Below the pieces are notes generated by a model. That model ran no database searches, was not told the DNA's origin, and worked only from the letters and a program-made list of their open reading frames with translations. Position numbers and translations under genes: made by a program. Of a DNA stretch of 64,000 nucleotides, positions 3,905 through 18,956 are shown piece by piece (position 1 is the first letter of the stretch; the number at the start of each line of letters is the position of its first letter). Location of the stretch: positions 124,001-188,000 of the forward strand of contig NZ_JAFMSZ010000003.1 in the NCBI RefSeq assembly GCF_017916505.1, read 5' to 3'. This DNA comes from Naasia sp. SYSU D00057. GTDB lineage: Bacteria; Actinomycetota; Actinomycetes; Actinomycetales; Microbacteriaceae.

Positions 3905-4240
3905 ATGGTCGAAGACGCCGAGCCGGCGAGATTCCTTGACGAGATCCCCTCGGGTAGTCAAGCGCCGTTCAGGGTGAGAACCGCCTCCGGCGCTCTATGC
4001 GCGCTGGGCCTCCGCGCTCAAACGGTGAGGCGCCTGCGTTGGGACGGCGAGCGACTCGAGATGCCAAGCGACGCGCTCCGGCATGACGGCGACGCGCTTC
4101 CTCTGCTGCGGTTCGAGCGGTGCCGCGTGGGCGAGGACTCAGTGGTCCTGCTGACCGGAGTCAGCGACGAGCCAAGCATTATCTTCACAGTGCGCCGAAC
4201 GACACCGGTTGTATCCATCCCCGAGATCAGCCACCGTTGA
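3905..4240 (+). CDS. Hypothetical protein, 111 aa
   Basis: I do not recognise this gene. The frame starts ATG at 3905 (a GTG at 3902 is directly in front) and ends right before the ROK remnant. The protein is acidic at the N-terminus (MVEDAEPARFLDEIPSG), then mixed, and ends FTVRRTTPVVSIPEISHR. It shows no signal peptide, membrane helix or cysteine-rich motif. No good ribosome-binding site is visible. It sits in a stretch of decayed genes and could itself be a remnant or a chance frame. Confidence 0.35.
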   Translation: MVEDAEPARFLDEIPSGSQAPFRVRTASGALCALGLRAQTVRRLRWDGERLEMPSDALRHDGDALPLLRFERCRVGEDSVVLLTGVSDEPSIIFTVRRTTPVVSIPEISHR

Positions 4241-4491
4241 GATCTAAGCAGCGTCGAGGTCGCTGCTGGCGTCCGCCGCGGTTACAAGCGGCTGCGGACC
4301 AAGGTGGTAGGGCGCTCCCCAGATGCTGGTGTCGGAACTGGCGGCCACATTCGCCTGGATCCGCTCGGGCCGTACTGCGTCGAGGGACGCAAGGGGATGC
4401 GCTCGGGCGACTGATCGCCCTGACGGCTCACCTCACGCTGCAATCGTCCGTCGTGCTCGCAGGCGATGGCATTTGCTGTCTACCGCCTAGT

Positions 4492-5571
4492 TGTACTCGG
4501 TCACCAGGTTGGTAGCAGTTCGGGTCTTGTGAAGCAGGAGAACCTCCGGGCTTAGTGGAGATGTCTGACGTCTCTACCAACCGGAGGTTCTCGTGTCTCA
4601 CCGTAAGCTCGTCTGACGGTTCAGGGTCGGCTCCTGGTCGTCGCGAGGGCCAGTGCCGGCTGGAAAAAGGCACATATCGCGGCCGCGATGGGCCGCTCTC
4701 GAGGCTGCGTGGCGAAGTGGATCGCTCGCTATGCCGCTGAGGGCGAGGCCGGACTGCACGACCGGTCATCCCGACCGGGGCGTTCGCCGGCCAGAACGAA
4801 TGCCGTGATCGAAGAGCGCGTGGTTGAGCTGCGTGAGCAGCAGCGCCGCGGCCCCGCCTGGATCGCAGAAGAGGCGGGAGTGGTCGCTCGGACCGTGTCG
4901 CGGATCTTACGGCGACGGGGACTGCCGCACCTGTCCGACCTCGATCCCATGACCGGTCAGCTCATTCGGGCCTCGAGGATCACCGCGACCCGTTACGAAC
5001 GAGCCCAACCGGGCGAACTGGTGCACATGGACGTCAAAAAGCTCGGCAAGATCCCGGATGGCGGCGGCTGGCGAAGCAAGGGCGAGACAGCCGCGAACCA
5101 CCAGTCACGCGTCGACAAGACCCCGATCGGCTTCGACTACGTCCACTCCCTCGTCGACGATCACTCACGGCCGGCCTATTCGGAGATCCTGCCCGACGAG
5201 AAGGGAACCACCTGCTCCGCGTTCCTGCTGCGCGCGGCCGCCTACTTCGCCGCTCACGGCATTCCCCGCATCCAGCGGCTGATGACCGACAACGCGCTGG
5301 CCTATCGCAAGTCCCTGTCCCGCGCAGTCGCTCAGCTGGGCGCCCGACAAGTCTTCATCCGTCCGCACTGCCCTTGGCAGAACGGGAAGGTCGAGCGCCT
5401 CAACCGGATGCTGATGACCGAATGGGCTTACCGGGAGGCCTTCACCACCAACGCCCAGAGGGCATCCGCCCTTGCCCCATGGCTCGAGGACTACAACACT
5501 CGACGCAACCACAGGCCCTCGGAGGCAAGCCGCCGATCAGCCGCCTGACACCAACGTCCTGACCGAGTACA
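4492..5571. mobile_element. IS481-family insertion sequence (1080 bp)
   Basis: The element is bounded by perfect 12-bp inverted repeats TGTACTCGGTCA (4492-4503, and the complement at 5560-5571) that stay similar further in (GGTTGG versus CGTTGG). It begins TGT and ends ACA as IS481 members do. The 6-bp CCTAGT occurs directly outside both ends (4486-4491 and 5572-5577), so the target duplication is intact. Length and the single IS481-type transposase fit the family. The element interrupts a ROK gene remnant. Its transposase is frameshifted, so this copy is probably immobile unless complemented. Confidence 0.9.
4593..5562 (+). pseudogene. IS481-type transposase, two frameshifts
   Basis: DDE recombinase that would cut and paste this element. 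The GTG at 4593 follows CCGGAGG. After MSHRK the frame is lost near 4605 and regained as ARLTVQGRLL in the next frame. A 286-codon open stretch then carries the helix-turn-helix region and an intact catalytic core: HMDVKKLG, LMTDNALAYR and WQNGKVERLNRM supply D, D and E. Near 5514 a second single-base loss turns the expected NHSALGGKPPISRLT ending into NHRPSEAS. The natural stop TGA at 5560-5562 overlaps the right inverted repeat. Either true decay or assembly error at two sites could explain this. Confidence 0.88.
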
Positions 5572-5734
5572 CCTAGTCGCGGACAGGGCCGCTGAGCGAT
5601 TTGCGAGCGAACGGAGCAGCCGTGCGCAGCCGGTCTCTATCCACGTCGACTCGAGCGGATTCCGAGCTTGGGCGCGCGGGGCAGCGGCCGTCGCGATCCA
5701 AGACGCCGTCGGCAGGCTAACCGCCGAATACTGA

Positions 5735-6018
5735 CCGAGCAGTAACACTTCGATTCCATCGCGTGCTTGAAGTGCCCGCGATCATCATGCAAGCCGGTGC
5801 CAGGTCTGTCGCGGACTGCGCGGGCTGAGGAGCTCGTTCTCCTGATTGAGCCGTGTCCTACTGCGTGCTCGAGGGCCGATCGCTGGCAGCGGCCCAAAGC
5901 GGGACCTCGGCGAGAAGGTGCCCACGTTCGGGTGACCGATCGAGCGTTCATCGGTACTGGGAAGATTGACGGCCCCCGGTGAGACTTCCTAAACGCGCCG
6001 AGGACGACGGGCACGAGG
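5735..6018. other. Gene-free stretch between the ROK remnant and the sirtuin operon
   Basis: 284 bases with no recognisable gene, strong hairpin or repeat. Short open frames here lack ribosome-binding sites and family motifs. It may contain further eroded coding DNA. Confidence 0.4.
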
Positions 6019-6867
6019 CTACGAGTACTTCGTCTCGAGGTACTCGCTGAGAGTGCGCGGGGCGGCCCCGGTGATGTTCTCGATGGCGTGACTGACGGGT
6101 GCCATGACGTTGCTGGCGATGGCGGTGTAGGTACTGACCCAAGCGTCGAGCTGCCAGGCGGGTGCGCCGTACTTCGCTCGGGATGCGTAGGCTTCCTCGA
6201 TGCTCTCGTCGTAGTAGCTGACTTCGTTTCCGCGGGCGGCGCTGATCGTAGCGGCGACTTCAGCGAGGGAGAGGGCTTCGCGGCCGGTGAGGTCGTAGGT
6301 CTGGCCGGCGTGCTTGTCGGGGGCGGTGAGAATCTCGGCGGCGGTGCGGGCGACGTCGATTCGGGCGACGATGGCGCATCGTCCAGCTCCGGCGGGGCCG
6401 CGGATGACGCCGTCCTCGCCCACGAGAGCTTCCATGAAGTCGATATAGAAGCTGTCGCGGAGGAAGGTCCAGTTCATGCCGGAGGCCTTGATGTACTCCT
6501 CGGTGACGTAGTGATCGCGGGCGAGGGTGAAGGTGCTGTCGGGAGCGGCGGCGATGAACGAGGTGTAGACGATGTGCGACACTCCAGTGGCCGCGGCGGC
6601 GTCGATGAAGGCTCGATGCTGGTCCAGCCGGTCCGCGCTTTCGGAGGCGGACACCATGAACAGTGTCCCGACCCCATCGAGCGCGCCGGTGGCGGCGGCC
6701 TGGTCGGTGTAGCTGAACTGGTGCACGGTGGTGGCGGGCAGCTCTGGGGCCTTCGCAGGCGTGCGGACCAGGAGCCGCTGATGGATCCCACGGTCGGCGA
6801 GGTCACGGGCGACGAAGCCTCCGAGGACGCCGGTGGCGCCGGTGACGGCGATCGGGATGGTGGTCAT
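6019..6867 (-). CDS. NmrA-like NAD(P)-binding oxidoreductase (QorB-type SDR)
   Basis: Atypical short-chain dehydrogenase of 282 aa, most like NAD(P)H:quinone oxidoreductase QorB/YtfG. The N-terminus has the dinucleotide motif VTGATGVLGG, then the NmrA-type order: LLVRTPAKAPEL, a DGVGTLFMVSA strand, VSHIVYTSF in place of the classical YxxxK region, and LRDSFYIDF. It would be soluble and reduce quinones or other electrophiles with NAD(P)H. It overlaps the sirtuin gene upstream by 4 bases and is the last gene of the HxlR-macrodomain-SirTM-SDR operon. In Corynebacterium a related quinone reductase is controlled by the HxlR-type redox sensor QorR, which fits this context. The true substrate is unknown. 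Confidence 0.85.
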   Translation of the reverse strand: MTTIPIAVTGATGVLGGFVARDLADRGIHQRLLVRTPAKAPELPATTVHQFSYTDQAAATGALDGVGTLFMVSASESADRLDQHRAFIDAAAATGVSHIVYTSFIAAAPDSTFTLARDHYVTEEYIKASGMNWTFLRDSFYIDFMEALVGEDGVIRGPAGAGRCAIVARIDVARTAAEILTAPDKHAGQTYDLTGREALSLAEVAATISAARGNEVSYYDESIEEAYASRAKYGAPAWQLDAWVSTYTAIASNVMAPVSHAIENITGAAPRTLSEYLETKYS

Positions 6868-7763
6868 GCGCTTGGCCTTTCTACGGCGGTGATGAGGCGG
6901 TTGATGATGTCCCCGGCGTCGCCGCCGAGCGAGGCGGCGCGGCCGGTGAGCGGTTCAGGTACCCCTGGGTGGTCGCGATTGACTCGTATGAGGGTCGCTC
7001 TGGGAATGACGGTCGCGATGTGTTCGACCGGCCATCGGATGACGCTCGGGGTGTTGAAGCCGCTGCCGATCTCGACGATCGCCAGCGATTCGCCGCTGTC
7101 ACGTGTGTCGGTCAGCCAGTCGTTGAGGGAGTCCAGTTGGGGTTGGAAGTGGTCGTTGATGTACCAGGAGCCGGCAAAGACGTTGAGGAACACCTCTCCA
7201 CCACAGTTCGGGCACGACGGCACCGCATCCTCGGAGGTCTGACCGGTTAGGGGGTCGTAGTTCTCGAGGACGTGGGCGATGATGCCGCGGGCGTCCCAGA
7301 CGATGCGCGTGCATGGCTCGAGGCATTGGTAAAGCGCGTAATCGCCCTGTGGGGTGTAAACGGACTCGGAAGCGAATCCGTTTCGGGTGAAGAGGGCGTC
7401 GACGTTGGAGGACATGACGAAGTGCTCGCGGTCGCCCACGGCGGACCGCAGTGCCTGGTAAAGCGCGTTCGGTCCGTCGCCGAGGCGGATGTCGTTGACG
7501 TGGGTGGCCCAGTACCCCCACATGTGTCGTGGCGGGAGGGGGTAGCCGATGAGTTGGTAGCGCGCACTGAATCCGGCCGCGCTGAGTGCGGGGAAAAGCT
7601 CATGGAACCGTTCCCGGTCGGTGTAGTCATAGCCAGCGGCGGCGGAAAGTCCGGCTCCAGCACCGATGAGAACACGGTCTGCGGTGTGAATGGCGTCGAG
7701 CGCCTGGTCCTGGTCGAGGTCGCCGGCGGCGAGTTGGGGGAGGGACCGCTGATGGTGGCTCAT
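6864..7763 (-). CDS. Class M sirtuin (SirTM), predicted protein ADP-ribosyltransferase
   Basis: Sir2-fold protein of 299 aa. GAGAGLS (34-40) binds NAD, SSNVDALF (118-125) supplies the N-x-D motif, and TPQGD has Gln139 where deacetylating sirtuins carry the catalytic His. Cys147, Cys151, Cys184 and Cys187 (CLEPC and CPNC) form the zinc site. In the described SirTM family the enzyme ADP-ribosylates a lipoylated GcvH-like protein during redox stress and a partner macrodomain removes the mark. Here the macrodomain gene is directly upstream (4-base overlap), while the GcvH-L and LplA2 genes of the classical operon are absent. Transferase activity and target are inferred; the family call is firm. 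Confidence 0.88.
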   Translation of the reverse strand: MSHHQRSLPQLAAGDLDQDQALDAIHTADRVLIGAGAGLSAAAGYDYTDRERFHELFPALSAAGFSARYQLIGYPLPPRHMWGYWATHVNDIRLGDGPNALYQALRSAVGDREHFVMSSNVDALFTRNGFASESVYTPQGDYALYQCLEPCTRIVWDARGIIAHVLENYDPLTGQTSEDAVPSCPNCGGEVFLNVFAGSWYINDHFQPQLDSLNDWLTDTRDSGESLAIVEIGSGFNTPSVIRWPVEHIATVIPRATLIRVNRDHPGVPEPLTGRAASLGGDAGDIINRLITAVERPSA

Positions 7764-8590
7764 GCGGCGCGGAGTTTCTGAAGGGCCGCGCGGTAGACCG
7801 CTTCGTCGGCGGCGGTGAAGAGGCTGATGACGACGCGGAGGCGGCTTGAGGGGTTTTCAGCGAACCAGGCGGCGAGGACGGTGAGGCAGATGGTGGCGGC
7901 CGGGGCCTTGGGGAAGCCGAACACGCCTGTGGAGACGCTGCAGAGCCCGACCGAGTCGAGCCCTGCCGCTTCAGCTGCGGCGAGGATGCTGCGGTAGCTG
8001 TTGGTGAGCGCCTCCTCGTGGGCGGCGCGAAGCTCGCCGTGAACGATAGGACCGACGGTGTGGATGACGTGCTTGGCAGGCAGGTGGTAGCCCCCTGTGA
8101 TCGTGGCCGTGCCCGTGGGTTCGGCATGTCCTTGCTCGCTCATGTGGCGGGCGCACTCGGCGCGTAGCTCCGGCCCAGCAGCGGCGTGGATGACGTTATC
8201 GATGCAGGCGTGCTCGGGCCGGAAGCAGCCCAGCATCTGCGCATTGGCGGCGTTGACGATCGCGCCGGCGCGTAGCCGGGTGAGATCTCCACGCCAGAGG
8301 GCAATGCGGTCAATGGGAAGACCTGTGGCACCCACTTCTTCGACTGCGAGCGTGGGTAGATTCATCGCTTCGATGACGCCGCGCTCGTCACGCTCCCGGG
8401 ATAGCAGCAAGTCAAGCTCGTGGAGCACCTGAGCCGGGATGGGTCGTGGTGGCCGCATCGTCAGCATGGCCGCCAACAGCTCTCGCTGCCGCCCCCTGTC
8501 TCGCTCGCTGCGAACGTACTGCGCCTGATCGGAGGTCAGAACGTCGCCTGCGAAGTAGTCGATAAGACCGTCGAACTGTTGGTTCATCAC
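7760..8590 (-). CDS. Zinc-type macrodomain protein-ADP-ribose hydrolase
   Basis: Macrodomain protein of 276 aa expected to remove ADP-ribose put on proteins by the neighbouring SirTM. An N-terminal helical part (1-90) of the kind seen in SirTM-linked macrodomains precedes the fold. Signature segments are WRGDLTRLRAGAIVNAAN (99-116), GCFRPEHACIDNVIHAAAG with Cys122, His127 and Cys129 as likely zinc ligands, HLPAKHVIHTVGP, and the phosphate loop STGVFGFP (220-227). This Cys/His pattern defines the Zn-dependent macrodomain class. It overlaps hxlR by 4 bases and sirTM by 4 bases, so stoichiometric co-expression is likely. Confidence 0.9.
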   Translation of the reverse strand: MMNQQFDGLIDYFAGDVLTSDQAQYVRSERDRGRQRELLAAMLTMRPPRPIPAQVLHELDLLLSRERDERGVIEAMNLPTLAVEEVGATGLPIDRIALWRGDLTRLRAGAIVNAANAQMLGCFRPEHACIDNVIHAAAGPELRAECARHMSEQGHAEPTGTATITGGYHLPAKHVIHTVGPIVHGELRAAHEEALTNSYRSILAAAEAAGLDSVGLCSVSTGVFGFPKAPAATICLTVLAAWFAENPSSRLRVVISLFTAADEAVYRAALQKLRAA

Positions 8591-8940
8591 GCCGCAGCGA
8601 AACGTCGGCGCGCTTGCAGGATCGGTTCCATGTGCTCCTTAGCCCAGTCCTCGAGGGCCTTGAGCGGAACCTGGAGTGTGCGCCCGGCATCGCTCAACTC
8701 GTAGTCAACGCGCACCGGTACGGCGGCGGTGACGGTGCGGATGACCAAACCGTCCTCTTCCAGCGCCCGAAGCGTTTGCGTCAGCATCTTCTGCGATACC
8801 CCGTCGATGCGCGCCGCGAGCTCGGAGAAGCGCATCGGACCATCGGAGAGGGCTCCGATCACGAGGACGGTCCACCGATCCCCGATCCGATCGAGGAGCT
8901 TGCGCGTCGGACAGTTGCGGTCGTACGGGTTCCACTCCAC
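8587..8940 (-). CDS. HxlR-family regulator with a single N-terminal cysteine (redox sensor type)
   Basis: Winged-helix transcription factor of 117 aa, first gene of the sirtuin operon. NCPTRKLLDRIGDRWTVLVI and the wing region RFSELAARIDGVSQKMLTQT are textbook HxlR. The only cysteine is Cys10, at the place used for thiol-based sensing by YodB, CatR and QorR, so derepression by quinones, aldehydes or disulfide stress is a reasonable inference. The GTG start has GGAGG 5 bases upstream, which decides the start. The divergent gap to the NTF2-like lipoprotein contains two inverted repeats that could be its operators. Confidence 0.92.
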   Translation of the reverse strand: MEWNPYDRNCPTRKLLDRIGDRWTVLVIGALSDGPMRFSELAARIDGVSQKMLTQTLRALEEDGLVIRTVTAAVPVRVDYELSDAGRTLQVPLKALEDWAKEHMEPILQARRRFAAA

Positions 8941-8969
8941 CTAAGCCTCCAGTCACTAAAAAACCAGCA

Positions 8970-8987
8970 AGGCACTTTTCGGTGCCT
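8970..8987. promoter_or_regulatory. Inverted repeat AGGCAC-N6-GTGCCT, candidate HxlR operator
   Basis: Perfect 6-bp arms around TTTTCG, 30 bases upstream of the hxlR start in the divergent intergenic region. Position suits autoregulation; function is inferred. Confidence 0.5.
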
Positions 8988-9000
8988 ACTTCCGTCCGGC

Positions 9001-9021
9001 TTGTAACTCTCTTACGGTAAC
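9001..9021. promoter_or_regulatory. Repeated GTAA/TTAC half-sites, candidate second operator
   Basis: GTAA (9003-9006), TTAC (9012-9015) and GTAA (9017-9020) form two overlapping inverted repeats about 90 bases upstream of the lipoprotein GTG. This symmetric AT-rich spot in a GC-rich background could bind HxlR for the rightward gene. Confidence 0.4.
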
Positions 9022-9111
9022 TCATGCGTTCGGCGAATGGAACCCTGCCGTCCGGCGCGACGTACCCCAAGGACGCTCGTCGGAGCAGCCCCGAAATGAG
9101 AAAGCACCGTC

Positions 9112-9999
9112 GTGACCCGCACCTCCAGACGCCTCGCCGCCCTGAGCGGCCTCGTCATCGGCGCAACCGCCCTGGTCGGCTGCGCGCCCACTGCCTTTCC
9201 GCCCGCCCCTACAACCCCTGAGGAGACGACCATGAGCGACGACCAGACACCCGCCGAGATTGTGACGGCGGCGACCACCGCCGTCTTCGGCGACCGCGAC
9301 CTGTCGGCGATCGACGACTATTTCGGCCCCACCTACAGGCAGCACTCAACTCTCGCCACCGACGGTGTCGAGGGCCTGCGCGCCCTCGCCGGCTCGCTCG
9401 GCGACGACTTCCGCTACGAGCCCGCCCGCCTCATCGCCGACGGCGACCTCGTGATGACGCAGGGCACGTACTTCGGCTTCGGGCCGGACCCCCTCACCGG
9501 CTACGACGTCTGGCGCGTGGAAGACGGCAAGATCGTCGAGCACTGGGATTCACTCACGCCGGTTGTTACCGAGACCGTCAGCGGCCGTTCCCAGACCGAC
9601 GGGCCGACCGAGGTCACGGACCTCGACAAGACCGCGCAGAACAAGGAGCTCGTCACCGCGTTCGCCGAGAAGGTGCTGGTTGGGGCCGACTACAGCCTGC
9701 TGACCGACTACATCTCGGCGGAGCAGTACGACCAGCACAACCCGGAAGCCGCAGACGGACTCGCCGGCTTCGGTGCCGCCGTGGAGAAGTGGGCCGCAGA
9801 CGGCAAGAACCTGGCTTACAAGCAGGTGCATCAGGTCATCGCCCAGGGCAACTTCGTCTTCACCCGCTCCGAAGGCGACTTCGGCGTCCCGTCCATCTAC
9901 AACGACCTCTGGCGCGTTCAGGACGGCAAGATCGTCGAGCACTGGGACGTTGTCATCCCCGTGCCGGCCGACCTTCCGCACAGCAACGGCGTCTTCTAA
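9112..9999 (+). CDS. Double NTF2-like (SnoaL-type) protein with optional lipoprotein leader
   Basis: 295 aa from GTG 9112. Residues 1-24 are a lipoprotein signal ending LVGC. Two homologous SnoaL/NTF2-fold domains follow, each ending with the same phrase: YDVWRVEDGKIVEHWDSL and NDLWRVQDGKIVEHWDVV. The fold often binds small hydrophobic ligands or acts as cyclase/isomerase; no catalytic claim can be made. GTG 9112 has only a weak GAGAAAG, whereas an internal in-frame ATG at 9232 has a strong GAGGAG 6 bases upstream and would give a 255-aa cytosolic form. The gene is divergent from the HxlR/sirtuin operon and is probably co-regulated. Confidence 0.8.
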   Translation: MTRTSRRLAALSGLVIGATALVGCAPTAFPPAPTTPEETTMSDDQTPAEIVTAATTAVFGDRDLSAIDDYFGPTYRQHSTLATDGVEGLRALAGSLGDDFRYEPARLIADGDLVMTQGTYFGFGPDPLTGYDVWRVEDGKIVEHWDSLTPVVTETVSGRSQTDGPTEVTDLDKTAQNKELVTAFAEKVLVGADYSLLTDYISAEQYDQHNPEAADGLAGFGAAVEKWAADGKNLAYKQVHQVIAQGNFVFTRSEGDFGVPSIYNDLWRVQDGKIVEHWDVVIPVPADLPHSNGVF

Positions 10000-10008
10000 G
10001 CAAACGAC

Positions 10009-10044
10009 GGGGGCGCCGCGCAAGATCGCAGGCGCCCCCTTTCC
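10009..10044 (+). terminator. Intrinsic terminator after the NTF2-like gene
   Basis: GGGGGCGCC (10009-10017) pairs perfectly with GGCGCCCCC (10031-10039) and is followed by TTTCCTT, ten bases after the stop codon. Confidence 0.85.
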
Positions 10045-10195
10045 TTCCCTCGCCTCCAACCCGCGATGTGAACTTCTCCGCCGAGACGCGCTCGAGGCGG
10101 TGCGGGGCTGCCGTTGGCGATCGCGAAGGTCGCAAATATACGGACGTTCTGATAGTTTCGCCACGGACATGTAGCTGGCTTGAAGAAGGTGCTCC

Positions 10196-10750
10196 TTGAA
10201 TCGACCGCGGCGCAGCGATCCTGATCGCAGGACACGCATCCTGGAGGCGACTCTCGATGTCATCGCCCAGCACGGATCCCCCGGAGCCACCTACCGATCA
10301 GTAGCCGAAGCCGCTGACGTGCCCCTCGGCTCGATGACTTATCACTTTCCCACCCGCGACGAGATGCTCCTCAGCGCCTTTCAGCTTCTCGCCGACGAGC
10401 AGCACCGGCGGTTCGACGCGATCCTTGCCGACCTTCACGAGGGGGAGGATCCCCGTGACCGGATCGTCGAACTCATCGTCACTCTCGGAGCGGGATACGG
10501 GCGAGACATGGTGCTGTCGGCAGAGCTCTACGCCTTGGCAGTCCGCGACGCTCGGTATCGAGAGTTGATCCAGGCGTGGATGCACAAGTCGCGGCGCTCG
10601 ATCGAGCGGCACTTTCCCGCAGACCTCGCCGCCACGATCGACGCGCTTCAGGAGGGGCTCGTTCTTCATAGTCACATCTCCGCCGAGCCGTTCGACGCGG
10701 AACGTATCCGTCGAGCCGTCTACAGCCTCATTCCCGCGCCTTCTCGCTGA
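10196..10750 (+). CDS. TetR/AcrR-family repressor
   Basis: One-component DNA-binding regulator of 184 aa. The N-terminal helix-turn-helix (about 12-58) reads RILEATLDVIAQHGSPGATY, SVAEAADVPLGSMTYHFPTR, typical of TetR proteins. The variable all-helical C-terminal ligand domain gives no clue to the effector. The start is TTG with GAAGGT just upstream. It precedes an MFS exporter-like gene by 36 bases and an LLM flavoenzyme, so it probably represses its own operon in response to a compound that the pair exports or oxidises. The upstream region contains ACGGAC repeated twice (about 10140 and 10163), but no clear palindrome. Confidence 0.88.
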   Translation: MNRPRRSDPDRRTRILEATLDVIAQHGSPGATYRSVAEAADVPLGSMTYHFPTRDEMLLSAFQLLADEQHRRFDAILADLHEGEDPRDRIVELIVTLGAGYGRDMVLSAELYALAVRDARYRELIQAWMHKSRRSIERHFPADLAATIDALQEGLVLHSHISAEPFDAERIRRAVYSLIPAPSR

Positions 10751-10786
10751 AATCCCACTCCGCTCTCCTCTACCCCCTGGACCGTC

Positions 10787-11998
10787 GTGAAAAACCGCCC
10801 TGCCCTGACGCTTGCCCTGCTGATCTTCATCCCGGGCCTCGGGATCTCGTCCTGGGTGACGCGGTCCCCTGACCTTCGAGACGTTCTCGGCGCCTCGACC
10901 GTCGAGATCGGCCTCATCTTGTTGGGGCTGTCGCTCGGCTCAATGATCGGCATCCTGAGTTCCGGACCGTTGGTGGCGCGACTAGGCACTCGCCCGGTAA
11001 TCCTCACTGCCACCGCGTCGATCGTCGGAGGGGTGGCGATAATCGGGCTGGGAGGAGCCTTCGCTCAGGGTTTCGTCGTGGCGACCGGGCTCTTCTTCTT
11101 CGGGCTTGGGATGGGGGGCGGGGAAGTAGGGCTCAACGTCGCGGGCGCTGAGATCGAGCGCCAGCGAGGCAAGGATTTCCTACCGACGCTGCACGGGTGC
11201 TTCAGCCTCGGCACGACGGTCGGCGCCGGCGCCGGCATCGCCTGCACTGCCATGCAAGTGCCCGTGTCAGTGCACCTGGGCGTCGCCGCCGCTGTCGCAG
11301 CCGTGATGCTCCTCGCTGCCGCTCCCGGGGTGGTCGTCAACATCGGTCGGCAGACCGCAGCGACGCCGACCGGGCCTCGATCGCAGAGCGTGCTCCGGGA
11401 TCCGAAGCTGCTCGTCATCGGCGCCGTGGTGCTAGCGATGGCCTTCGCCGAGGGAACGGCAAACGATTGGCTGCCGCTGGTCATGGTCGATGGTCACGGC
11501 TTCGACCCCGCCTCAGGATCGGCGATGTACGCGCTCTTCGCTGTCGCCATGACGGTGGGGCGCTTCACTGGCGGATGGCTCAGCGCCAAGATTGCGCGAT
11601 CGGTGTTGCTCGCCGCGAGCGCAATGCTGGGAGCGGTCGGACTTGCGCTCGTGATCTTCGTCGACGGTAGTCCTGCGGTCCTCCTGGGCGCGATCGTCCT
11701 CTGGGGGCTGGGGGCTTCCCTCGGATTCCCTCTAGCGCTCTCCGCGGCTGGCGCCTCGGGCGAGAACTCTGCGGCTCGCGTCAGTTTTGCCTCGATCGTT
11801 GGGTACATGGCATTCCTGGTCGGGCCTCCCCTCCTCGGGGTCCTGGGCGAAGAGGTTGGCTTGCGGAACGCAATGATCGTCGTACTCGTAGTGGTCGGTG
11901 CCGCGATCTTCGCTGCTCCTGCAACCCGCCCAAGGCAGAACGCCCCTGTCGTTGCCGTCTCCGCAGTTCCCGAGCCTCGCGTCAGCAGCGACGCCTGA
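10787..11998 (+). CDS. MFS transporter (YbjJ/fucose-permease-like, 12 helices)
   Basis: Major facilitator of 403 aa with GTG start and about 12 hydrophobic helices. The first begins at residue 7 and VARLGTRPVIL is the loop 2-3 signature. The segment AFAEGTANDWLPLVMVDGHG is shared almost word for word with the MFS protein encoded at 29836-31071, so the two are paralogues of a family common in Actinobacteria whose substrate is unknown. It lies between the tetR gene and an LLM oxidoreductase gene in what looks like one transcription unit. Efflux of a toxic small molecule is plausible but unproven. Confidence 0.85.
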   Translation: MKNRPALTLALLIFIPGLGISSWVTRSPDLRDVLGASTVEIGLILLGLSLGSMIGILSSGPLVARLGTRPVILTATASIVGGVAIIGLGGAFAQGFVVATGLFFFGLGMGGGEVGLNVAGAEIERQRGKDFLPTLHGCFSLGTTVGAGAGIACTAMQVPVSVHLGVAAAVAAVMLLAAAPGVVVNIGRQTAATPTGPRSQSVLRDPKLLVIGAVVLAMAFAEGTANDWLPLVMVDGHGFDPASGSAMYALFAVAMTVGRFTGGWLSAKIARSVLLAASAMLGAVGLALVIFVDGSPAVLLGAIVLWGLGASLGFPLALSAAGASGENSAARVSFASIVGYMAFLVGPPLLGVLGEEVGLRNAMIVVLVVVGAAIFAAPATRPRQNAPVVAVSAVPEPRVSSDA

Positions 11999-12081
11999 GG
12001 TCCAGCTTTCCCTGATTGGGGCGACGGCACCGCACTGACCATCACCTTCGTCTCTTCCGGCACCGACACCAAGGAGTATTC

Positions 12082-13014
12082 ATGTTCTCGCCGCTGCCAA
12101 TCGGCGTCATGCTGCCACGCGACCTCAGTGCGAGCGATGTTCTCCACTTCGCCCGGAGCGCTGAAGCGGCCGGAGCTGCGGAGCTTTGGGTAGTTGAGGA
12201 CCTCGGCTTCCGAGGCGGCATTGCGCAAGCTGGAGCTGTGCTAGCGGCGACTACCTCACTACGAGTCGGCATCGGCATATTGCCTGCCGCCGTCCGAAAC
12301 CCCGTCTACCTGGCGATGGAACTGGCAACGCTGGCCCAACTATTCCCCGGAAGAATCGACGCTGGCATCGGACACGGCATGCCCGGCTGGCTTCGACAGA
12401 TCGACGCCTGGCCCTGGCGGCCTCTGGCCCTTCTCGAGCAGACTCTCATCACCGTCCGGAGGTTGCTCGCAGGGGAAGAAGCGGGCGGAGCACGTCTTGA
12501 TCCGGCTGCCGTCCCGATGGCACCACCCCCGCTGCTCGCGGGGGTTCGAGGCCCTCGATCCCTCGCCGTCGCAGGTCGCCTCGCTGACGGCACCGTTCTC
12601 GCTGAACCAGTGACGCCGGAGTACGCGACGGCGTCGCTGGCTCAGATCAAAGCCCGAGTGCCGCATCGCCTCGTTGCCTACAACGTTGCCAGCGTCGATG
12701 ACGACGAGCGGAAGGCGTTCGCAGCAGCTCGCCCAGCTCTCGCGTGGATCGGCGAACCGGACTGGGATGTACACGTCGCTGACCTGATCTTCGCGGATGA
12801 GTTCCGGGCGTTACGAGCCGTCGCAGACGGTCCCGAGGATTTCGCTCGTCAGCTCCCTGATGCGTGGGTCGCTGAACTCGCCCTCGCCGGAACAGCACAA
12901 CGAGTACGCAACCGACTAACGGCGCTGCGCAATGCAGGCGTGACGGAAGTCGTACTCCAGCCGACACCCTCGTCACCTTTTGCTGCAATCGATGCGCTCC
13001 ACGCGCTGGCATAG
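12082..13014 (+). CDS. LLM-class flavin-dependent oxidoreductase
   Basis: Luciferase-like TIM-barrel flavoenzyme of 310 aa using FMN or F420. Seen are PIGVMLPRDLSASDVLHFAR, ELWVVEDLGFRGG, the family strand TTSLRVGIGILPAAVRNPVY, and FPGRIDAGIGHG. The start ATG 12082 is set by AAGGAG 7 bases upstream; a longer frame from 12016 lacks such a site. The substrate is not predictable from sequence. It follows the MFS gene by 83 bases and is likely induced with it through the TetR protein. Confidence 0.88.
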   Translation: MFSPLPIGVMLPRDLSASDVLHFARSAEAAGAAELWVVEDLGFRGGIAQAGAVLAATTSLRVGIGILPAAVRNPVYLAMELATLAQLFPGRIDAGIGHGMPGWLRQIDAWPWRPLALLEQTLITVRRLLAGEEAGGARLDPAAVPMAPPPLLAGVRGPRSLAVAGRLADGTVLAEPVTPEYATASLAQIKARVPHRLVAYNVASVDDDERKAFAAARPALAWIGEPDWDVHVADLIFADEFRALRAVADGPEDFARQLPDAWVAELALAGTAQRVRNRLTALRNAGVTEVVLQPTPSSPFAAIDALHALA

Positions 13015-13025
13015 GAGGTGCAGTG

Positions 13026-14024
13026 TTAGGCAGATTCTCGGGTGATCACTCGAAGTTGAGGTGTCGGCACATCGTCTGACTGTTCACGATCGACAAGTTG
13101 CGCTAACTCAGCCACCCTGACCCGGTCGTGATCGATCAGACTGACGCTGGTGAGGGCAGGGATCGCCGCTGCCGCAAGAGGTGAGTCATCGACGCCGATG
13201 ACAGCGAGCTCTTGCGGTACGGCCAGGCCGAGATGTGAGGCGGCCGACAGAACGCAGAACGCGATTTCATCGTTGTAGGCAGCGATCGATCGTAAACCTG
13301 GCGATTGACGTCGAGCTGACACGAGGGCCTCTGCAATCGTGGCCACATCGTGACTGGAGCAGACGTGGACCGCCTCCATCTCGAGGATTGTCGCTTCGTC
13401 AAGAAGCGAGGCGAGCCGCACCTCGTCGAAATTGTTGAGCTGATCCTCATCGGTTCCGCAGTATCCAATGACCTCGTGGCCGCGAGAGTGCAGATACCGC
13501 ACCTGAGCCCGAGCGGCAGCACCGACCTCGCGCGCCAACGCTGCTGAGTCAGGGAACATCGAGAGGACTCTCTCCACACCGACCGATCGCAGCTCCTCCT
13601 TCAGTTCACGGCTCAACGGGGTCACCGTAACCACCACTTGTGGGGCGAGCACGGTCGCAAGCGAGCGAAGCCGAGAGCGCGCTGGATCGCTGCTGAGACC
13701 AGGGAAGTCGACGACCGGTAGGTAGCCGAGGCCGGTGAGTGCCTCGGCGGTTTCCCGCGCTGATCTCGCAACCAGGTCGCCATAGGGGATCTCGCTCAAG
13801 TCGATGACAGCGATCGTGGATTTCCCCACAGCGAGGGCGCGAGCGTGGGCGTTCGGCACATAGCCCAGCTCGCGGGCGACCCGCGTGACCTTGTCACGGG
13901 TTGCCTCTGGGATGCTCTGCCCCGGTGTGGCGTTGAGGACGTAGCTGACGGTAGCGCTGGACACCCCGCTCCGACGCGCCACATCTGCGGCAGTTGCCCG
14001 TTTCGCCGGTTCCTTCACGTGCAC
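13026..14024 (-). CDS. LacI-family regulator of the adjacent beta-glucoside genes
   Basis: Repressor of 332 aa. The N-terminal LacI helix-turn-helix reads ATAADVARRSGVSSATVSYV with the hinge helix PNAHARALAVGKS, followed by a periplasmic-binding-protein-like sugar domain ending with VIGVDDSPLAAAAIPALTSV. The start is GTG 14024. It is divergent from an MFS transporter, GH3 and GH1 set, and a good LacI-type palindrome lies at 14079-14098 between them, so local control by a beta-glucoside or similar sugar is a strong inference. Confidence 0.93.
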   Translation of the reverse strand: MHVKEPAKRATAADVARRSGVSSATVSYVLNATPGQSIPEATRDKVTRVARELGYVPNAHARALAVGKSTIAVIDLSEIPYGDLVARSARETAEALTGLGYLPVVDFPGLSSDPARSRLRSLATVLAPQVVVTVTPLSRELKEELRSVGVERVLSMFPDSAALAREVGAAARAQVRYLHSRGHEVIGYCGTDEDQLNNFDEVRLASLLDEATILEMEAVHVCSSHDVATIAEALVSARRQSPGLRSIAAYNDEIAFCVLSAASHLGLAVPQELAVIGVDDSPLAAAAIPALTSVSLIDHDRVRVAELAQLVDREQSDDVPTPQLRVITRESA

Positions 14025-14078
14025 ATGGTGACACAGACTCCCGCCGCGCTTCGTCGTGTGCTAGCTTGACTCCCCGTA

Positions 14079-14098
14079 CTACTTATGCGCTTAAGTAG
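14079..14098. promoter_or_regulatory. LacI-type operator
   Basis: CTACTTA (14079-14085) and TAAGTAG (14092-14098) form an 18-of-20 symmetric palindrome around a central GCGC-like core, typical of LacI/GalR sites. It lies 16 bases before the ATG of the MFS gene and 55 bases from the lacI-type start, well placed to repress the rightward promoter. Confidence 0.75.
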
Positions 14099-14114
14099 CC
14101 CCGAAGGAGTGGCA

Positions 14115-15407
14115 ATGACAACACCAATCGAACCGGCGAACTCCGCCGAAACTCTCGTCGAGCCGAGCAGGTCCGAGTCGCCCGTCAGCAAGAGAACCGT
14201 CGGCGCGTTCCTGGGCGCCTACGTCGGCGCGTTCCTAGTTCTCATCGTCCCCATCGCTTCGACTCTCGCGTTGAAGGTCGCTGAGGTCGCACCGGACTCG
14301 CGCGAAGCGTCGCTCGGAGTCATCTCAGCGATAGGCGCCTTCGCTGCGCTCGTGGCGAATCCGATATTTGGGGCACTCAGTGATCGGACTACATCGAGGT
14401 TCGGCATGCGGCGCCCGTGGGTTCTCGGCGGCGCGATCGTTGGTTTCGCGGCGGTGCTCGTCCTTGCCTCCGCACCCAACGTGCTGGTTGTCGGACTCGC
14501 TTGGACGATTGTTCAGCTGGCGATGAACGCTGTCCTGTCGGGTCTGGCAGCTTTCCTGCCGGACCGAGTCCCGGAGCAGCAGCGCGGCAAAGTGTCGGCG
14601 TTCACTGGGGTCGCGCAGCAGCTAGCGCCTTTCATCGGCCTGCTTGTCGCCAACGTCGCATTCGGTTTCGGCGGCGGACTGACCGGCATGTTCATCGTGC
14701 CCTCGGCCCTCGGTCTCGCGCTCATCGTCCTCTACGTTCTGACGACTAGGGACCGCGTTCTGTCCCCCAACCTCCGGCAGTCCTTCAGGATCTCGACTGT
14801 TTTCAAAGCCTTCGCGTTCAACCCTCGCCGCAATCCCGACTTCGCGTGGGCGTGGCTCGGGCGTTTCCTCATCGTTCTCGCGTTCGCGGCGAACAGCACC
14901 TACCAGGTGTACTTCCTAAACGAACGCCTGGGCATTCCGCTCGAGCAGGCGGCGCTCTACCAGTTGGGTCTCGCCGTTCTGTCGGCAGTACTGCTCACAA
15001 TCAGTGCGAGCGTCTCCGGAGCGATTTCTGACCGTCTGAAGCGTCGGAAGGTGTTTGTCTTCATCGCGTCAGGACTTGTTGCTGCGGGGAGCCTAATCAC
15101 GGCCTTCTCCTTCGAGTTGCCGGTATACCTGATCGCGGCTGCCGTCACCGCAATCGCGACGGGAACGTACTTCGCCGTCGACCTTGCTCTCGTGACCGAC
15201 GTCCTGCCGAACAAGGAGACGGCGGCTGCGAAGGACATGGGGATCTTCAACATCGCGAACGCCCTTCCCCAGTCGTTGGCGCCGGCCCTCGCGCCGCTCT
15301 TGCTCTCTATCGGAGGCGGCGGAAACTACACCGCCCTCTTCATCGGTGCAGCGATCGTCGCCGTATTGGGTGCGCTGACCGTCGTTCCGATCAAAAAGGT
15401 TCGCTGA
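14115..15407 (+). CDS. MFS sugar (glycoside) transporter
   Basis: Membrane transporter of 430 aa with about 12 helices. GALSDRTTSRFGMRRPWVLGG is the loop 2-3 signature seen in glycoside/disaccharide porters of the GPH/SLC45-like type, and SGAISDRLKRRKVFV is its second-half copy. ATG 14115 is chosen because GAAGGAG lies 6 bases upstream; an ATG at 14085 sits inside the operator. It is first in a LacI-controlled unit with two beta-glucosidases, so uptake of beta-glucosides or cellobiose-like sugars is the likely job. Confidence 0.85.
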   Translation: MTTPIEPANSAETLVEPSRSESPVSKRTVGAFLGAYVGAFLVLIVPIASTLALKVAEVAPDSREASLGVISAIGAFAALVANPIFGALSDRTTSRFGMRRPWVLGGAIVGFAAVLVLASAPNVLVVGLAWTIVQLAMNAVLSGLAAFLPDRVPEQQRGKVSAFTGVAQQLAPFIGLLVANVAFGFGGGLTGMFIVPSALGLALIVLYVLTTRDRVLSPNLRQSFRISTVFKAFAFNPRRNPDFAWAWLGRFLIVLAFAANSTYQVYFLNERLGIPLEQAALYQLGLAVLSAVLLTISASVSGAISDRLKRRKVFVFIASGLVAAGSLITAFSFELPVYLIAAAVTAIATGTYFAVDLALVTDVLPNKETAAAKDMGIFNIANALPQSLAPALAPLLLSIGGGGNYTALFIGAAIVAVLGALTVVPIKKVR

Positions 15408-15437
15408 CCTCCGACCACGATTAGGAAGGCCTCTTCC

Positions 15438-17696
15438 ATGCATCCCCACGTCTCACAACTCACACTCGAAGAGAAGGCAGGACTACTGTCCGGCGGCTCC
15501 TTCTGGAAGACCCGCGCCGTAGACCGACTGGGCATCCCCTCCATGGTGCTGACCGATGGACCGCACGGCGTGCGCTATCAGCGGGAGGACAGCGACCATC
15601 TCGGCCTGTTCGACAGCGAACCCGCCACCAGCTTCCCGACGGCTTCGGCAACGGGATCTTCATGGGATCCCGAACTCGTCGAGGAGATGGGCCGAGCTCT
15701 TGGCGCTGAAAGCAGGGCCATCGGTGTCAACATCCTTCTCGGGCCGGGCGTCAACATGAAGCGCTCACCCCTGTGCGGACGGAACTTCGAGTACTTCGGC
15801 GAGGATCCGCTACTGGCCGGCGTGCTCGGCTCCGCGTGGGTAAGGGGCATCCAGTCCCAGGGAGTCGGCGCCTCGGTCAAGCACTACGCGGCAAACAACC
15901 AGGAGACCGACCGCATGCGGGTAAGCGCTGAGGTCGATGAGCGGACCTTGCGGGAGATCTACCTTCCCGCTTTCGAACGAATTGTTTGTGAGACACAGCC
16001 GGCGACGATCATGTGTTCTTACAACAAGGTGAACGGCGTCTACGCGTCACAGAACCGTTGGCTTTTGAGCGACACGCTGCGCGGGGACTGGGGCTTCGAG
16101 GGCTACGTCGTCTCGGACTGGGGGGCCGTTGTGGATCCGGTCGCGGCAGTGGCGGCCGGTCTCGATCTGGCGATGCCCGGCGCGGGAGAGAGTGTCCCAG
16201 AATCCATCGTGGAAGCGGTGCGTTCCGGAAACCTCGATGAGGCCAGCGTCGACACGGCGGTGTCGAACATACTCACCGTGCATGATCGTCTCCTCGCCGA
16301 TCGCCCTGCGGTCACCCCCGATCACGCGGCGAACCACGCCTTGGCTCGGCGAATCGCAACCGAGAGTTCGGTGCTGCTGACCAACGAAGGCAGCATCCTC
16401 CCCCTGGAAGCAGGTCAAGGCGGAAACATCGCGGTTATCGGAGAGTTCGCACGGACTCCGCGATATCAGGGCGCGGGAAGTTCACACATCAAGCCCACTC
16501 GCCTGGACGACGCATTGAGCGCTATCAGGGCAATGAGCGACCGCGAGATCGGCTTCGCAGCGGGGTTCAGCTTCGACGGAGCTGACGACTCGACGCTTCG
16601 CGCGGAAGCCGTGGAGCTAGCCTCACGCTCTGAGGTCGTGGTCTTGTTCCTCGGTCTGTCCGACGCCGAAGAATCCGAGGGTTTCGACCGCAAGAATCTG
16701 TTGCTGCCGGAGACGCAACGCCTGCTCGTCGCGGACGTGGTCGCGGCGAACCCGAACGTCATCGTCGTGCTGAGCAATGGCGGCGTGGTCACCCTTGACG
16801 GGATCGCCGGCGTCGTTCCGGCAGTCCTCGAGATGTGGCTCGGAGGCCAAGCTTCCGGTTCAGCAGCGGCTGAGATCCTGTTTGGTGCTGCAGAGCCAGG
16901 CGGGCGTCTCGCGGAAACCATCCCGCTTGCTCTGTCACACAACCCCGCGCATGTCAATTGGCCGGGGTCGGACGGGATCGTTCGGTACGGCGAGGGGGTA
17001 TACATCGGCTACCGCTGGTACGACGCGACCGACCGTGAGGTGGCGTTCCCGTTCGGGTACGGACTCAGCTACACCCGCTTCGAGTACTCCGACCTCGCCG
17101 TCAGGGTGGCCGACCGTACGGTCGCACAGGCGACGGTGCAGGTGACAATCGAGAACACTGGGGCACGCGCCGGCTCCGACGTTGTTCAGGTGTATGTCGG
17201 AGACGTTGAATCCACTGTCGATCGCCCCGCTCGCGAGCTTAAGGGCTTCGTCAAGGTGCACCTGGAGCCTGGAGAACGACGCACGGTGACCATCGACCTC
17301 GATGACCGCGCCTTCGCGTTCTGGCGTCAGGGATCCTGGGTGGTCGAACCCGGAGCCTTCACGATAGAGGTCGGGTCCCACTCGAGGAGTCTCCCGCTGC
17401 GCGAAGTGATCGAACTGGAGGTGCCCACACCTGTGATCGTTCCGGACAGGGATTCGACGGTTGCAGAGTGGGCTGATCACCCTTCCGGCATGAAGGCACT
17501 CCGCGAGGTGCTCAGCCACTTCGGCCCCGCGGCGGAGGCCATGGTGGGGGAGGAAACGTTGCAGATGGTCGGTTCGATGCCTCTGCGGACGATGCTGACC
17601 TTCGCAGCACAGGCGGCTCCGGAAACTGTTGACCTCGATGAGATCATCGAATCCCTCCTGTCAGAGGTACAGCAAGCCGGGCCGGTTCCCGCATAA
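15438..17696 (+). CDS. Glycoside hydrolase family 3 beta-glucosidase
   Basis: 752-aa GH3 enzyme hydrolysing terminal beta-linked sugars. LTDGPHGVR and GPGVNMKRSPLCGRNFEYFG mark the TIM-barrel domain, SVKHYAANNQETDR the Lys-His substrate motif, and GYVVSDWGA holds nucleophile Asp227. The alpha/beta sandwich domain follows (about 300-510) and a C-terminal fibronectin-III-like domain includes RELKGFVKVHLEPGERRTV. No signal peptide, so the sugar is imported first by the MFS protein. The stop TAA overlaps the ATG of the GH1 gene. Confidence 0.95.
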   Translation: MHPHVSQLTLEEKAGLLSGGSFWKTRAVDRLGIPSMVLTDGPHGVRYQREDSDHLGLFDSEPATSFPTASATGSSWDPELVEEMGRALGAESRAIGVNILLGPGVNMKRSPLCGRNFEYFGEDPLLAGVLGSAWVRGIQSQGVGASVKHYAANNQETDRMRVSAEVDERTLREIYLPAFERIVCETQPATIMCSYNKVNGVYASQNRWLLSDTLRGDWGFEGYVVSDWGAVVDPVAAVAAGLDLAMPGAGESVPESIVEAVRSGNLDEASVDTAVSNILTVHDRLLADRPAVTPDHAANHALARRIATESSVLLTNEGSILPLEAGQGGNIAVIGEFARTPRYQGAGSSHIKPTRLDDALSAIRAMSDREIGFAAGFSFDGADDSTLRAEAVELASRSEVVVLFLGLSDAEESEGFDRKNLLLPETQRLLVADVVAANPNVIVVLSNGGVVTLDGIAGVVPAVLEMWLGGQASGSAAAEILFGAAEPGGRLAETIPLALSHNPAHVNWPGSDGIVRYGEGVYIGYRWYDATDREVAFPFGYGLSYTRFEYSDLAVRVADRTVAQATVQVTIENTGARAGSDVVQVYVGDVESTVDRPARELKGFVKVHLEPGERRTVTIDLDDRAFAFWRQGSWVVEPGAFTIEVGSHSRSLPLREVIELEVPTPVIVPDRDSTVAEWADHPSGMKALREVLSHFGPAAEAMVGEETLQMVGSMPLRTMLTFAAQAAPETVDLDEIIESLLSEVQQAGPVPA

Positions 17697-18874
17697 TGCC
17701 CCTCCCGAAGGACTTCCTCTGGGGGGCGGCCACTTCAGCCCATCAGGTAGAGGGCGGGAATTGGACGAGTGACTGGTGGCGGATCGAACGCACCTCCGGT
17801 GCCCCGCTGGAACCGAGCGGCGACGCGGTGGATCACTATCACCGCTACCCCGAGGACATGCAGCTGCTGGCAGATGCGGGCCTCAACGCGTACCGGTTCA
17901 GCATCGAGTGGGCTCGGATTGAGCCGGAGAAGGGCGAGTACTCGCGCGCCCAACTCCAGCACTACCGAAGGATGATTGACACCGCTCGCGAGGCGGGTCT
18001 CGAGCCCGTCGTAACTCTGCACCACTTCTCGAATCCGGCGTGGTTCGCCGCCGAGAGCGGATGGACCACCCCAGGCGGGGTGGACCATTTCGCCATGTAT
18101 GTCGAGACCGTGTCGTCGATTCTCGACGGAGCGGGTTGGGTTGCGACGATCAACGAGCCCAACATCCTCTCCCTCATGGAAGCTATGCGGCAGGCGAGCT
18201 CCTCCGGAGCGGTAGCGTCTAGATTAACCGCTGCTCAAATGCCAATCCCGGATGAGGAGACGGGACTAGTGCTGGTCGAAGCGCATCGACGTGCTGTAGA
18301 AATCCTCCGAGCGAACACGTCGGCGAGGGTCGGCTGGACGGTCGCGCAGCAAGCATTCGTTCCAGGGCCCGGCAGCGAGGAGACCTTTCCTCGCATCTCG
18401 TGGCTCTGGGAGGACCTATACCTTCAAGCGTCGCGAGGCGACGACTTCGTGGGTACTCAGTCCTACACAAGCCAGACAATCGACTCCAACGGCGTGGTAC
18501 CTCATCCCGACAGTCCTGACAACACCCTGAACGGATGGGCCTACCGCCCTGACGCGCTAGGCATTGCGTTGCGTCATGCTCATGAGGTCACAGAAGGGGT
18601 CCCCCTCCTCGTGACCGAGAACGGGATAGCGACCGCCGACGACGAACGTCGAATTGCCTACACAAGCGCGGCACTGGAGCACCTAACCGCAGCCGTTGAG
18701 GACGGCATTGACGTGCGGGGCTACCTCCACTGGTCCGCCCTCGACAACTTCGAGTGGGGAGACTGGGCGCCGACCTTCGGGCTGATTGCCGTAGATCGCG
18801 ACACGTTCGCGCGGCACCCGAAACCGAGCTTGGCGTGGCTCGGCTCGGTGGCTCAGAACAACGGGGTGATCTGA
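17696..18874 (+). CDS. Glycoside hydrolase family 1 beta-glucosidase
   Basis: 392-aa cytosolic retaining beta-glycosidase. FLWGAATSAHQVEGG is the N-terminal signature, INEPN holds acid/base Glu154 and VTENGI holds nucleophile Glu308; WSALDNFEWGDW closes the aglycone pocket. It is somewhat shorter than the usual 440-480 residues because loops are reduced. No phospho-sugar binding pattern is obvious, which fits non-PTS uptake. Coupled to the GH3 gene by a one-base stop/start overlap and last of the LacI-controlled set. Confidence 0.95.
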   Translation: MPLPKDFLWGAATSAHQVEGGNWTSDWWRIERTSGAPLEPSGDAVDHYHRYPEDMQLLADAGLNAYRFSIEWARIEPEKGEYSRAQLQHYRRMIDTAREAGLEPVVTLHHFSNPAWFAAESGWTTPGGVDHFAMYVETVSSILDGAGWVATINEPNILSLMEAMRQASSSGAVASRLTAAQMPIPDEETGLVLVEAHRRAVEILRANTSARVGWTVAQQAFVPGPGSEETFPRISWLWEDLYLQASRGDDFVGTQSYTSQTIDSNGVVPHPDSPDNTLNGWAYRPDALGIALRHAHEVTEGVPLLVTENGIATADDERRIAYTSAALEHLTAAVEDGIDVRGYLHWSALDNFEWGDWAPTFGLIAVDRDTFARHPKPSLAWLGSVAQNNGVI

Positions 18875-18956
18875 TACTGCTTGATTCGAGACGAACCGGA
18901 GGCGGCGAGGCACGTGATCCGTGCGGTTCGATTCAACGAGCGGCGCAGAGGTTTGA

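Follow-up and report, generated by a model that had tools for sequence, protein, structure and literature searches.

Which protein would be marked with ADP-ribose by a class M sirtuin (SirTM) whose operon carries neither GcvH-L nor LplA2, and what would switch such an operon on? The question is raised by a locus in a 64,000-nucleotide stretch of Naasia sp. SYSU D00057 (contig NZ_JAFMSZ010000003.1, positions 124,001 to 188,000), called the window here, in which an HxlR regulator, a Zn-type macrodomain, a SirTM and a QorB-like short-chain dehydrogenase/reductase (SDR) are encoded on the minus strand and a tandem SnoaL gene points away from them. These five genes form a conserved module, a variant of the minimal SirTM/Zn-macrodomain system that is new here. 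With about even chances, in our estimate, it works as a horizontally mobile stress module controlled by HxlR, in which a thiol-reactive signal would start an ADP-ribose cycle of SirTM and macrodomain on a target encoded outside the operon. The features concerned are the following.

6019..6867, minus strand: NmrA-type SDR like E. coli YtfG/QorB, predicted NAD(P)H-dependent reductase (Pfam NmrA PF05368, 79.5 bits)
6864..7763, minus strand: SirTM, predicted ADP-ribosyltransferase (solved SirTMs 8rsn and 5a3a; model and Foldseek)
7760..8590, minus strand: Zn-type macrodomain, predicted (ADP-ribosyl)hydrolase (Pfam Macro PF01661, 119 bits)
8587..8940, minus strand: HxlR/DUF24-family regulator, GTG start with GGAGG upstream (Pfam HxlR PF01638, 100 bits)
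8971..8990, minus strand: candidate HxlR operator, inverted repeat AGTAGGCAC-N6-GTGCC, 30 bp before the HxlR start
9112..9999, plus strand: tandem SnoaL/NTF2-like protein, divergent from HxlR (Pfam SnoaL_2, 75.6 bits, two stretches)
5572..18913, no strand: segment in common with Herbiconiux, about 96% DNA identity (DNA comparison)

The gene set and its enzymes

The coordinates and junction sequences bore out the earlier note, which had described four genes on one strand with 4-base overlaps: GTGA joins the HxlR and macrodomain genes, and ATGA joins both the macrodomain to the SirTM gene and the SirTM to the SDR gene. The interval it had drawn, 6019-8940, holds the four genes as placed but was too short, as the divergent tandem-SnoaL gene, which belongs to the same unit, had been missed. 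The order HxlR-macrodomain-SirTM-SDR was sought in other genomes and was present in two. In Herbiconiux sp. SYSU D00978 (L044) the five-gene layout and the overlaps were kept with 95-99% protein identity. In a genome of another genus of the same family (G1016, locus L242) order and overlaps were the same, with identities of 79% (SnoaL), 88% (HxlR), 59% (macrodomain), 66% (SirTM) and 77% (SDR). Because the same order and the same three 4-base overlaps recur in both, the layout is more than chance.

The window sirtuin matched no Pfam model at E<=0.001. Among solved structures it matched the SirTMs 8rsn (132 bits) and 5a3a (68 bits), and its predicted model (predicted local distance difference test, pLDDT, 90.9) had SpySirTM 5a3a as top Foldseek match (E 8.9e-24, template modelling score, TM, 0.85), with the fungal fusion 8rsn also found and other sirtuins trailing at about 1e-12. 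The catalytic HG motif was replaced by QG (TPQGDY), and Gln stood at this place in 90 of 91 aligned sequences, with a gap in the remaining one. For the macrodomain, the NCBIfam model of protein-ADP-ribose hydrolase gave 268.7 bits, just below its cut-off of 272, and the nearest solved relatives were the Zn-macrodomains 8rsi, 8rsm, 8rsn and 5kiv. Its Zn-loop reads CFRPEHACIDN; C-x4-H-x-C and D-x3-H were both present (CFRPEHACIDNVIH), with Cys, His, Cys and Asp in 70/70 aligned relatives and the second His in 67/70, and Cys122, His127, Cys129, Asn116 and Asp131 were each found in all 70. The SirTM/Zn-macrodomain pair named in the earlier note was thus upheld by solved relatives, Zn-loop and QG motif. 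The Zn-macrodomain family is reported to cleave Cys-ADP-ribose (PMC11490716).

Mutation of Asn118, Gln137 or Arg192 caused a dramatic drop in SpySirTM activity (PMC4518038). In the window SirTM the first two were kept (Asn120, Gln139), together with Asp122 and four Cys, and Phe196 stood at the place of Arg192. An equivalent of Arg192 was found in 85 of the 91 sequences, the exceptions being those of the window, Herbiconiux, Nocardioides, Brooklawnia, Lentzea and one fragment. The SirTMs of G1016, G951 and G869 were also without it (F, N, N), and those of G935 and G715 kept Arg; His at position 205 was common to all eight subclade SirTMs without Arg192. The tree was built from 46 hand-picked rows of the 88 that remained after exclusion of L029 (a fragment), L060 (sirtuin apparently frame-disrupted) and L109, none of the broken genes, including the L058 SnoaL in two frames, being mended; it placed the window, Herbiconiux, Nocardioides, Brooklawnia and Lentzea SirTMs in one group with a support of 84/88, which is not firm. 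A SirTM subclade without a residue that is essential in the S. pyogenes enzyme is new here. Its simplest reading would be a single loss of Arg192 with possible compensation, and whether Arg192 defines class M sirtuins is not settled.

The QorB-like character of the SDR was confirmed, since its best relative by sequence was E. coli YtfG (2zcu, 125 bits over residues 6-275), which we take to be QorB. Its substrate was left open because triphenylmethane reductases scored 91 bits. Of 245 other class genomes, 48 had close relatives of it (at least 216 bits); at most three of the 48 carried a true SirTM, and none of the 29 best relatives had HxlR, macrodomain or SirTM within 1.5 kb. On these counts the SDR was rejected as a hallmark of the module. 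The idea that SirTM and macrodomain had opened a pre-existing HxlR-SDR pair was likewise unsupported for the SDR group of the window; the HxlRs of the window's group usually stand opposite NAD(P)H reductases that belong to other groups.

In the tandem SnoaL protein both halves kept the QH and EHWD motifs, and the model reached pLDDT 93. SirTM loci held relatives at 54-66% identity in Streptomyces, Lentzea and G556, at 41-47% in Corallococcus, Shewanella, Grimontia, Enterovibrio and Vibrio (where two frames encode it), and at 37-43% in three clostridial loci. Single-domain SnoaL proteins of 32-34% identity occurred in Nocardioides, and some Streptomyces loci contain them as additional genes. 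Among 394 class genomes, a tandem SnoaL of at least 54% identity was present in 3/3 with true SirTM (2/2 when the query genome is left out) and in 1/391 without it (Fisher p 4e-7); in that exception, G497, it stood beside an AraC-type gene. The long form contains a lipobox (LVGC), and an internal ATG at 9232 is preceded by GAGGAG. A lipobox was also seen in the forms of L056, L057 and L244 (5282-6226), and no signal peptide was recognised by eye in those of G1016 and Streptomyces, so that the same partner would stand on both sides of the membrane. By its predicted signal, the tandem SnoaL of the window may be exported.

Distribution, regulator and candidate operator

True SirTM was found only in the query genome and Herbiconiux among 299 family genomes and in three of 394 class genomes, and QG-motif SirTM in six of 396 order genomes (the query genome, G1016, G951, G869, G935 and G715); few candidates were scored per genome in these searches, and absences are not strict. 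The other seven order matches reached at most 68 bits, and the one checked, G470, was an HG sirtuin. In the class-level matches to SirTM, 13 of 16 genomes carried HG sirtuins and were set aside.

Window positions 5572-18913 were about 96% identical to Herbiconiux DNA and the flanks 72-84%, except one stretch of 90% at 3690-4315. Because of this difference, the segment 5572-18913 was probably transferred recently. Near its left end lie a tRNA-Leu (cag) gene (2740-2825) and an IS481-type transposase gene (4688-5548). A TetR regulator, an MFS transporter and a luciferase-like monooxygenase (PF00296, 117 bits) are encoded on the segment at 10196-13014; although a luciferase-like monooxygenase (LLM) accompanies the extended SirTM operon, its presence near this module is probably a coincidence.

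Other loci showed related layouts. In G869 (L244), HxlR, macrodomain and SirTM run in one direction, and an NAD-binding reductase, a SnoaL and an SDR gene in the opposite direction. Single SnoaL genes flank HxlR-macrodomain-SirTM on both sides in Nocardioides (L045), and a divergent NAD-binding reductase gene stands in front of the three in Brooklawnia (L046). In G951 (L243) macrodomain and SirTM were found, and neither HxlR nor SnoaL nor SDR was detected in the 16 kb read there. An SDR of 58-60% identity adjoins SirTM and macrodomain genes in another order in Streptomyces (L051, L060, L061).

Neighbours were counted at 90 loci, which comprised the window, 10 plasmid or other-genome loci (8 of 27 plasmid matches were read) and 79 of the 80 best genome-collection loci (best 80 of 588 relatives), with L044 excluded. 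HxlR lay within 5 kb of SirTM at 39 of these loci, Rrf2 at 12 and an AraC-type regulator at 13, and at least one of six redox families was present at 39 of 90. HxlR genes numbered 34 per 636 kb within 4 kb of SirTM and 0 per 269 kb at 6-8.5 kb. The neighbour profiles had been built from the same loci, which are related to one another, and gene calls at high-GC loci were rough; the far bins served as controls, together with LysR, ABC, AKR and MATE, none of which showed a distance-dependent fall around SirTM.

The HxlR of the window has an HxlR domain with the conserved N-terminal Cys, and this residue, Cys10 in DRNCPTRK, is its sole cysteine, as the earlier note had held. The best solved relatives were 1yyv, 7kd3 and YodB. 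The gene at 8587-8940 was the only clear HxlR in the genome, a second match being borderline at 20.7 bits. Sensing of electrophiles or oxidants has been reported for this N-terminal Cys in the HxlR family (PMC7835342).

The inverted repeat before HxlR matches its pattern exactly by construction, since the pattern was read from the same site. No other site with fewer than two mismatches was found in the genome, and the 17 sites with two mismatches were at the level of the reversed-pattern control (21 matches in all). Upstream of the closest HxlRs, GCAC-N6-GTGC occurred in 7 of 16 regions, where it was among the two commonest spaced pairs, and any pair reached at most 5 in 20 shuffles; the upstream regions L175 and L186 (2 of 29 HxlRs) were unplaceable, and several others begin inside coding sequence. 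Among the upstream regions of SirTM-linked HxlRs, 15 of 42 scored above every one of 50 mononucleotide shuffles of their own sequence, the window, L044, G935 and several Clostridia included, and the L045 region was no better than its shuffles. Outside SirTM loci, a divergent NAD(P)H reductase faces 24 of the 29 close HxlRs with DNA (8 NAD-binding, 8 NmrA-type and 8 zinc-type dehydrogenase/quinone reductases). Since the upstream repeat, the similar sites and these facing reductases point the same way, it is probable that HxlR controls the gene set, with the repeat as a candidate operator only; the idea of HxlR control, already present in the earlier note, was strengthened by them.

The window HxlR was 70-88% identical to those of L045, L046, L242 and L244 and 47% identical to the G935 one; its identity did not exceed 68% with others in the class sample, or 49% with the listed clostridial SirTM-linked HxlRs. 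Because of these identities, and because the tree needs at least six changes of HxlR presence, repeated recruitment of HxlR to SirTM and macrodomain is suggested.

Some further layouts were observed. In clostridial loci (L031, L078, L088, L117 and similar ones), HxlR, radical-SAM, nitroreductase and PPOX or 4Fe-4S protein genes are followed by macrodomain and/or SirTM; the radical-SAM enzyme of L031 is annotated as ACGX type. An Enterococcus casseliflavus plasmid (L030) carries Rrf2, SDR, macrodomain, SirTM, a PPOX-family gene and a Nudix hydrolase consecutively; an HxlR-like gene and a flavodoxin-fold reductase come directly after them. In other loci SirTM is often followed by DUF1848. In L101, macrodomain and HxlR share one strand and SirTM is divergent, so that the writer is transcribed separately from the eraser. 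The actinobacterium G715 (L246, 7362-8300) has a SirTM with QG and Arg192, and no macrodomain was detected in the 16 kb read around it.

The marked protein and rival explanations

One clear GcvH was found in the genome, and it was canonical (140.7 bits for gcvH against 67.4 for the GcvH-like model), with its gene between gcvT and gcvP by a reading of the frames. The genome search found no GcvH-L, and two weak GCV_H matches of lipoyl/biotinyl type (26.8 and 21.8 bits) lay in very long frames. The single LplA/LipB-type match was an LplAB-like lipoate ligase about 58 kb from the operon, scored on a partial frame (G000:C15:190695-191300, right of the window). The claim that the classical substrate genes are missing therefore held for GcvH-L but not for lipoate ligase. 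That their lack would be a new departure did not hold, since SirTM-macrodomain pairs without both genes are already published (PMC4518038, PMC11490716). With the own GcvH and partial ligase as queries, none of 91 SirTM loci gave a match, which has little bearing on extended operons as the loci were picked by similarity to the window SirTM. The macrodomains of Methanobrevibacter oralis, the one minimal-operon example tested, and of fusions did not remove ADP-ribose from GcvH-L (PMC11490716). Most likely, the marked protein is one other than GcvH-L, with its gene elsewhere than in the operon.

The mobile stress module proposed above would work as follows. HxlR would occupy the inverted repeat between the divergent genes. 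A thiol-reactive signal, such as a quinone, an aldehyde or disulfide stress, would modify its sole cysteine and switch on HxlR-macrodomain-SirTM-SDR and the tandem-SnoaL gene. The reactive small molecule would be handled by the SDR, as NAD(P)H reductase, and by the tandem SnoaL, with its cyclase/epoxide-hydrolase-like fold; SirTM would spend NAD+ to put ADP-ribose on a protein, and the Zn-macrodomain would take the mark off. The identities of the genes, their active-site motifs, the conserved layout, the operator-like repeat, the context of HxlR and the failure to find GcvH-L are computed results, whereas inducer, direction of regulation, catalytic activity and target are what we infer in this scheme.

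Several observations weigh against this proposal. Neither HxlR, Rrf2 nor an AraC-type regulator lay within 5 kb in 29 of the 90 loci, and at other SirTM loci AraC-type and Rrf2 regulators stand in for HxlR. In L242 the operator-like repeat was weak, agreeing at 9 of 13 positions, and upstream of HxlR in L046 it was not recognised. A Cys within the first 30 residues was found in 37 of 39 HxlRs; the N-terminal Cys is thus family-wide and does not name the inducer. In B. subtilis, HxlR acts as an activator and responds to formaldehyde, which leaves signal and direction of regulation open. In addition, the long form of SnoaL is predicted to be exported, away from SirTM, and with Arg192 replaced the activity of the sirtuin could differ or be lost.

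This last point leads to a doubtful alternative, in which a drifted sirtuin would mainly cleave NAD+ or act on small molecules and the macrodomain would handle the product. It fits the varied residues at the Arg192 position (F, F, N, Y, H, F, N, N in eight subclade sequences, all with His205), where 85 of 86 other aligned sequences have Arg and the exception is a fragment; yet Asn120, Asp122, Gln139 and four Cys are retained, the macrodomain keeps its Zn and catalytic residues, and both genes are intact frames at 50-66% identity. Modification of the canonical lipoylated GcvH or a lipoylated E2 by the classical mechanism is unlikely to the same degree: canonical GcvH and a lipoate ligase are present and lipoylated GcvH-L is the sole known SirTM substrate, but the S. 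aureus and S. pyogenes SirTMs leave canonical GcvH unmodified (PMC4518038), the tested minimal-operon and fusion macrodomains were inactive on GcvH-L (PMC11490716), and the window SirTM has no Arg192. More doubtful still is a target within the operon, the SDR or the tandem SnoaL, switched by ADP-ribose. Both are linked to SirTM and macrodomain in more than one arrangement, and the earlier note had named the SDR as a candidate; it is unlikely as sole target, because no SDR was detected in L045 or in L046, whose contig ends 788 bases past SirTM, and close relatives exist in genomes without SirTM. The SnoaLs of L045 are single-domain and just 32-34% identical, and export of the long form also speaks against that protein.

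A toxin-antitoxin or anti-phage pair, with SirTM as harmful part and macrodomain as guard, would suit a writer/eraser pair on a mobile segment. It is nevertheless very improbable, as no PADLOC model matched macrodomain, SirTM or SDR, defence models on HxlR gave weak Csa3 matches only, the recurrent neighbours are redox enzymes and regulators, and just two SirTM relatives of 28-30% identity (contigs L198 and L199) were found in the viral collection. Much less likely than the wider reading given next, of which it would be the boldest form, and hardly probable in itself, is that the lone HxlR cysteine is itself ADP-ribosylated and freed by the Zn-macrodomain. Tentatively, and with clearly less than even confidence, the mobile stress module may be extended: SirTM/Zn-macrodomain pairs without GcvH-L would be accessories of electrophile/thiol stress regulons across phyla (with an HxlR, Rrf2 or AraC-type regulator, tandem SnoaL, and NAD(P)H or flavin reductase), their target would be independent of lipoyl, and in one actinobacterial subclade the sirtuin would have been remodelled for a new acceptor, with Arg192 lost and His205 gained.

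Comparison with known systems

A defined regulator and a candidate operator are available at this locus and its relatives, together with two linked small-molecule enzymes and a subclade of sirtuins in which a catalytic position has changed. The related sets in distant bacteria are a concrete place to seek the target of ADP-ribosylation by SirTM, and the target question leads to specific tests in environmental actinobacteria. The literature search found no paper joining SirTM and HxlR, nor SnoaL with sirtuin and macrodomain, in a coverage that left most subscription journals outside. An earlier comparative-genomics survey of NAD-using operons may include some of these neighbours.

Minimal SirTM/Zn-macrodomain operons, such as that of M. 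oralis, share with this locus the adjacent pair, QG, the Zn-loop and an operon without GcvH-L and LplA2 (PMC11490716, PMC4518038), and the available parts of these texts name no HxlR or SnoaL partner. Here HxlR and a QorB-like SDR are joined in the overlapping unit, a tandem SnoaL is divergent and Arg192 is missing. With the extended operon of S. aureus and S. pyogenes (GcvH-L, LplA2, OYE, LLM), an oxidoreductase-linked SirTM-macrodomain pair and a proposed role in oxidative stress are in common. In contrast, no GcvH-L was found in this genome, a positively selected GcvH-L partner is missing, the oxidoreductase is an SDR and not OYE, and the luciferase-like monooxygenase, at a distance of 3 kb, belongs to a separate TetR/MFS neighbourhood.

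The tandem SnoaL shares the NTF2-like fold with SnoaL/NTF2-like cyclases and epoxide hydrolases (3g0k, Lsd19 4rzm, MonBI/MonBII; Foldseek E about 1e-7), but the full-length TM was just 0.35-0.42 at 15-34% identity, and the window protein is linked to SirTM and macrodomain. HxlR regulators beside NAD(P)H reductases (YodB, QorR and YtfH-type) have in common with this locus a one-Cys HxlR, likely autoregulation and co-control of a reductase, whereas here the SirTM and macrodomain genes separate the regulator from the SDR, and the tandem SnoaL takes the divergent position.

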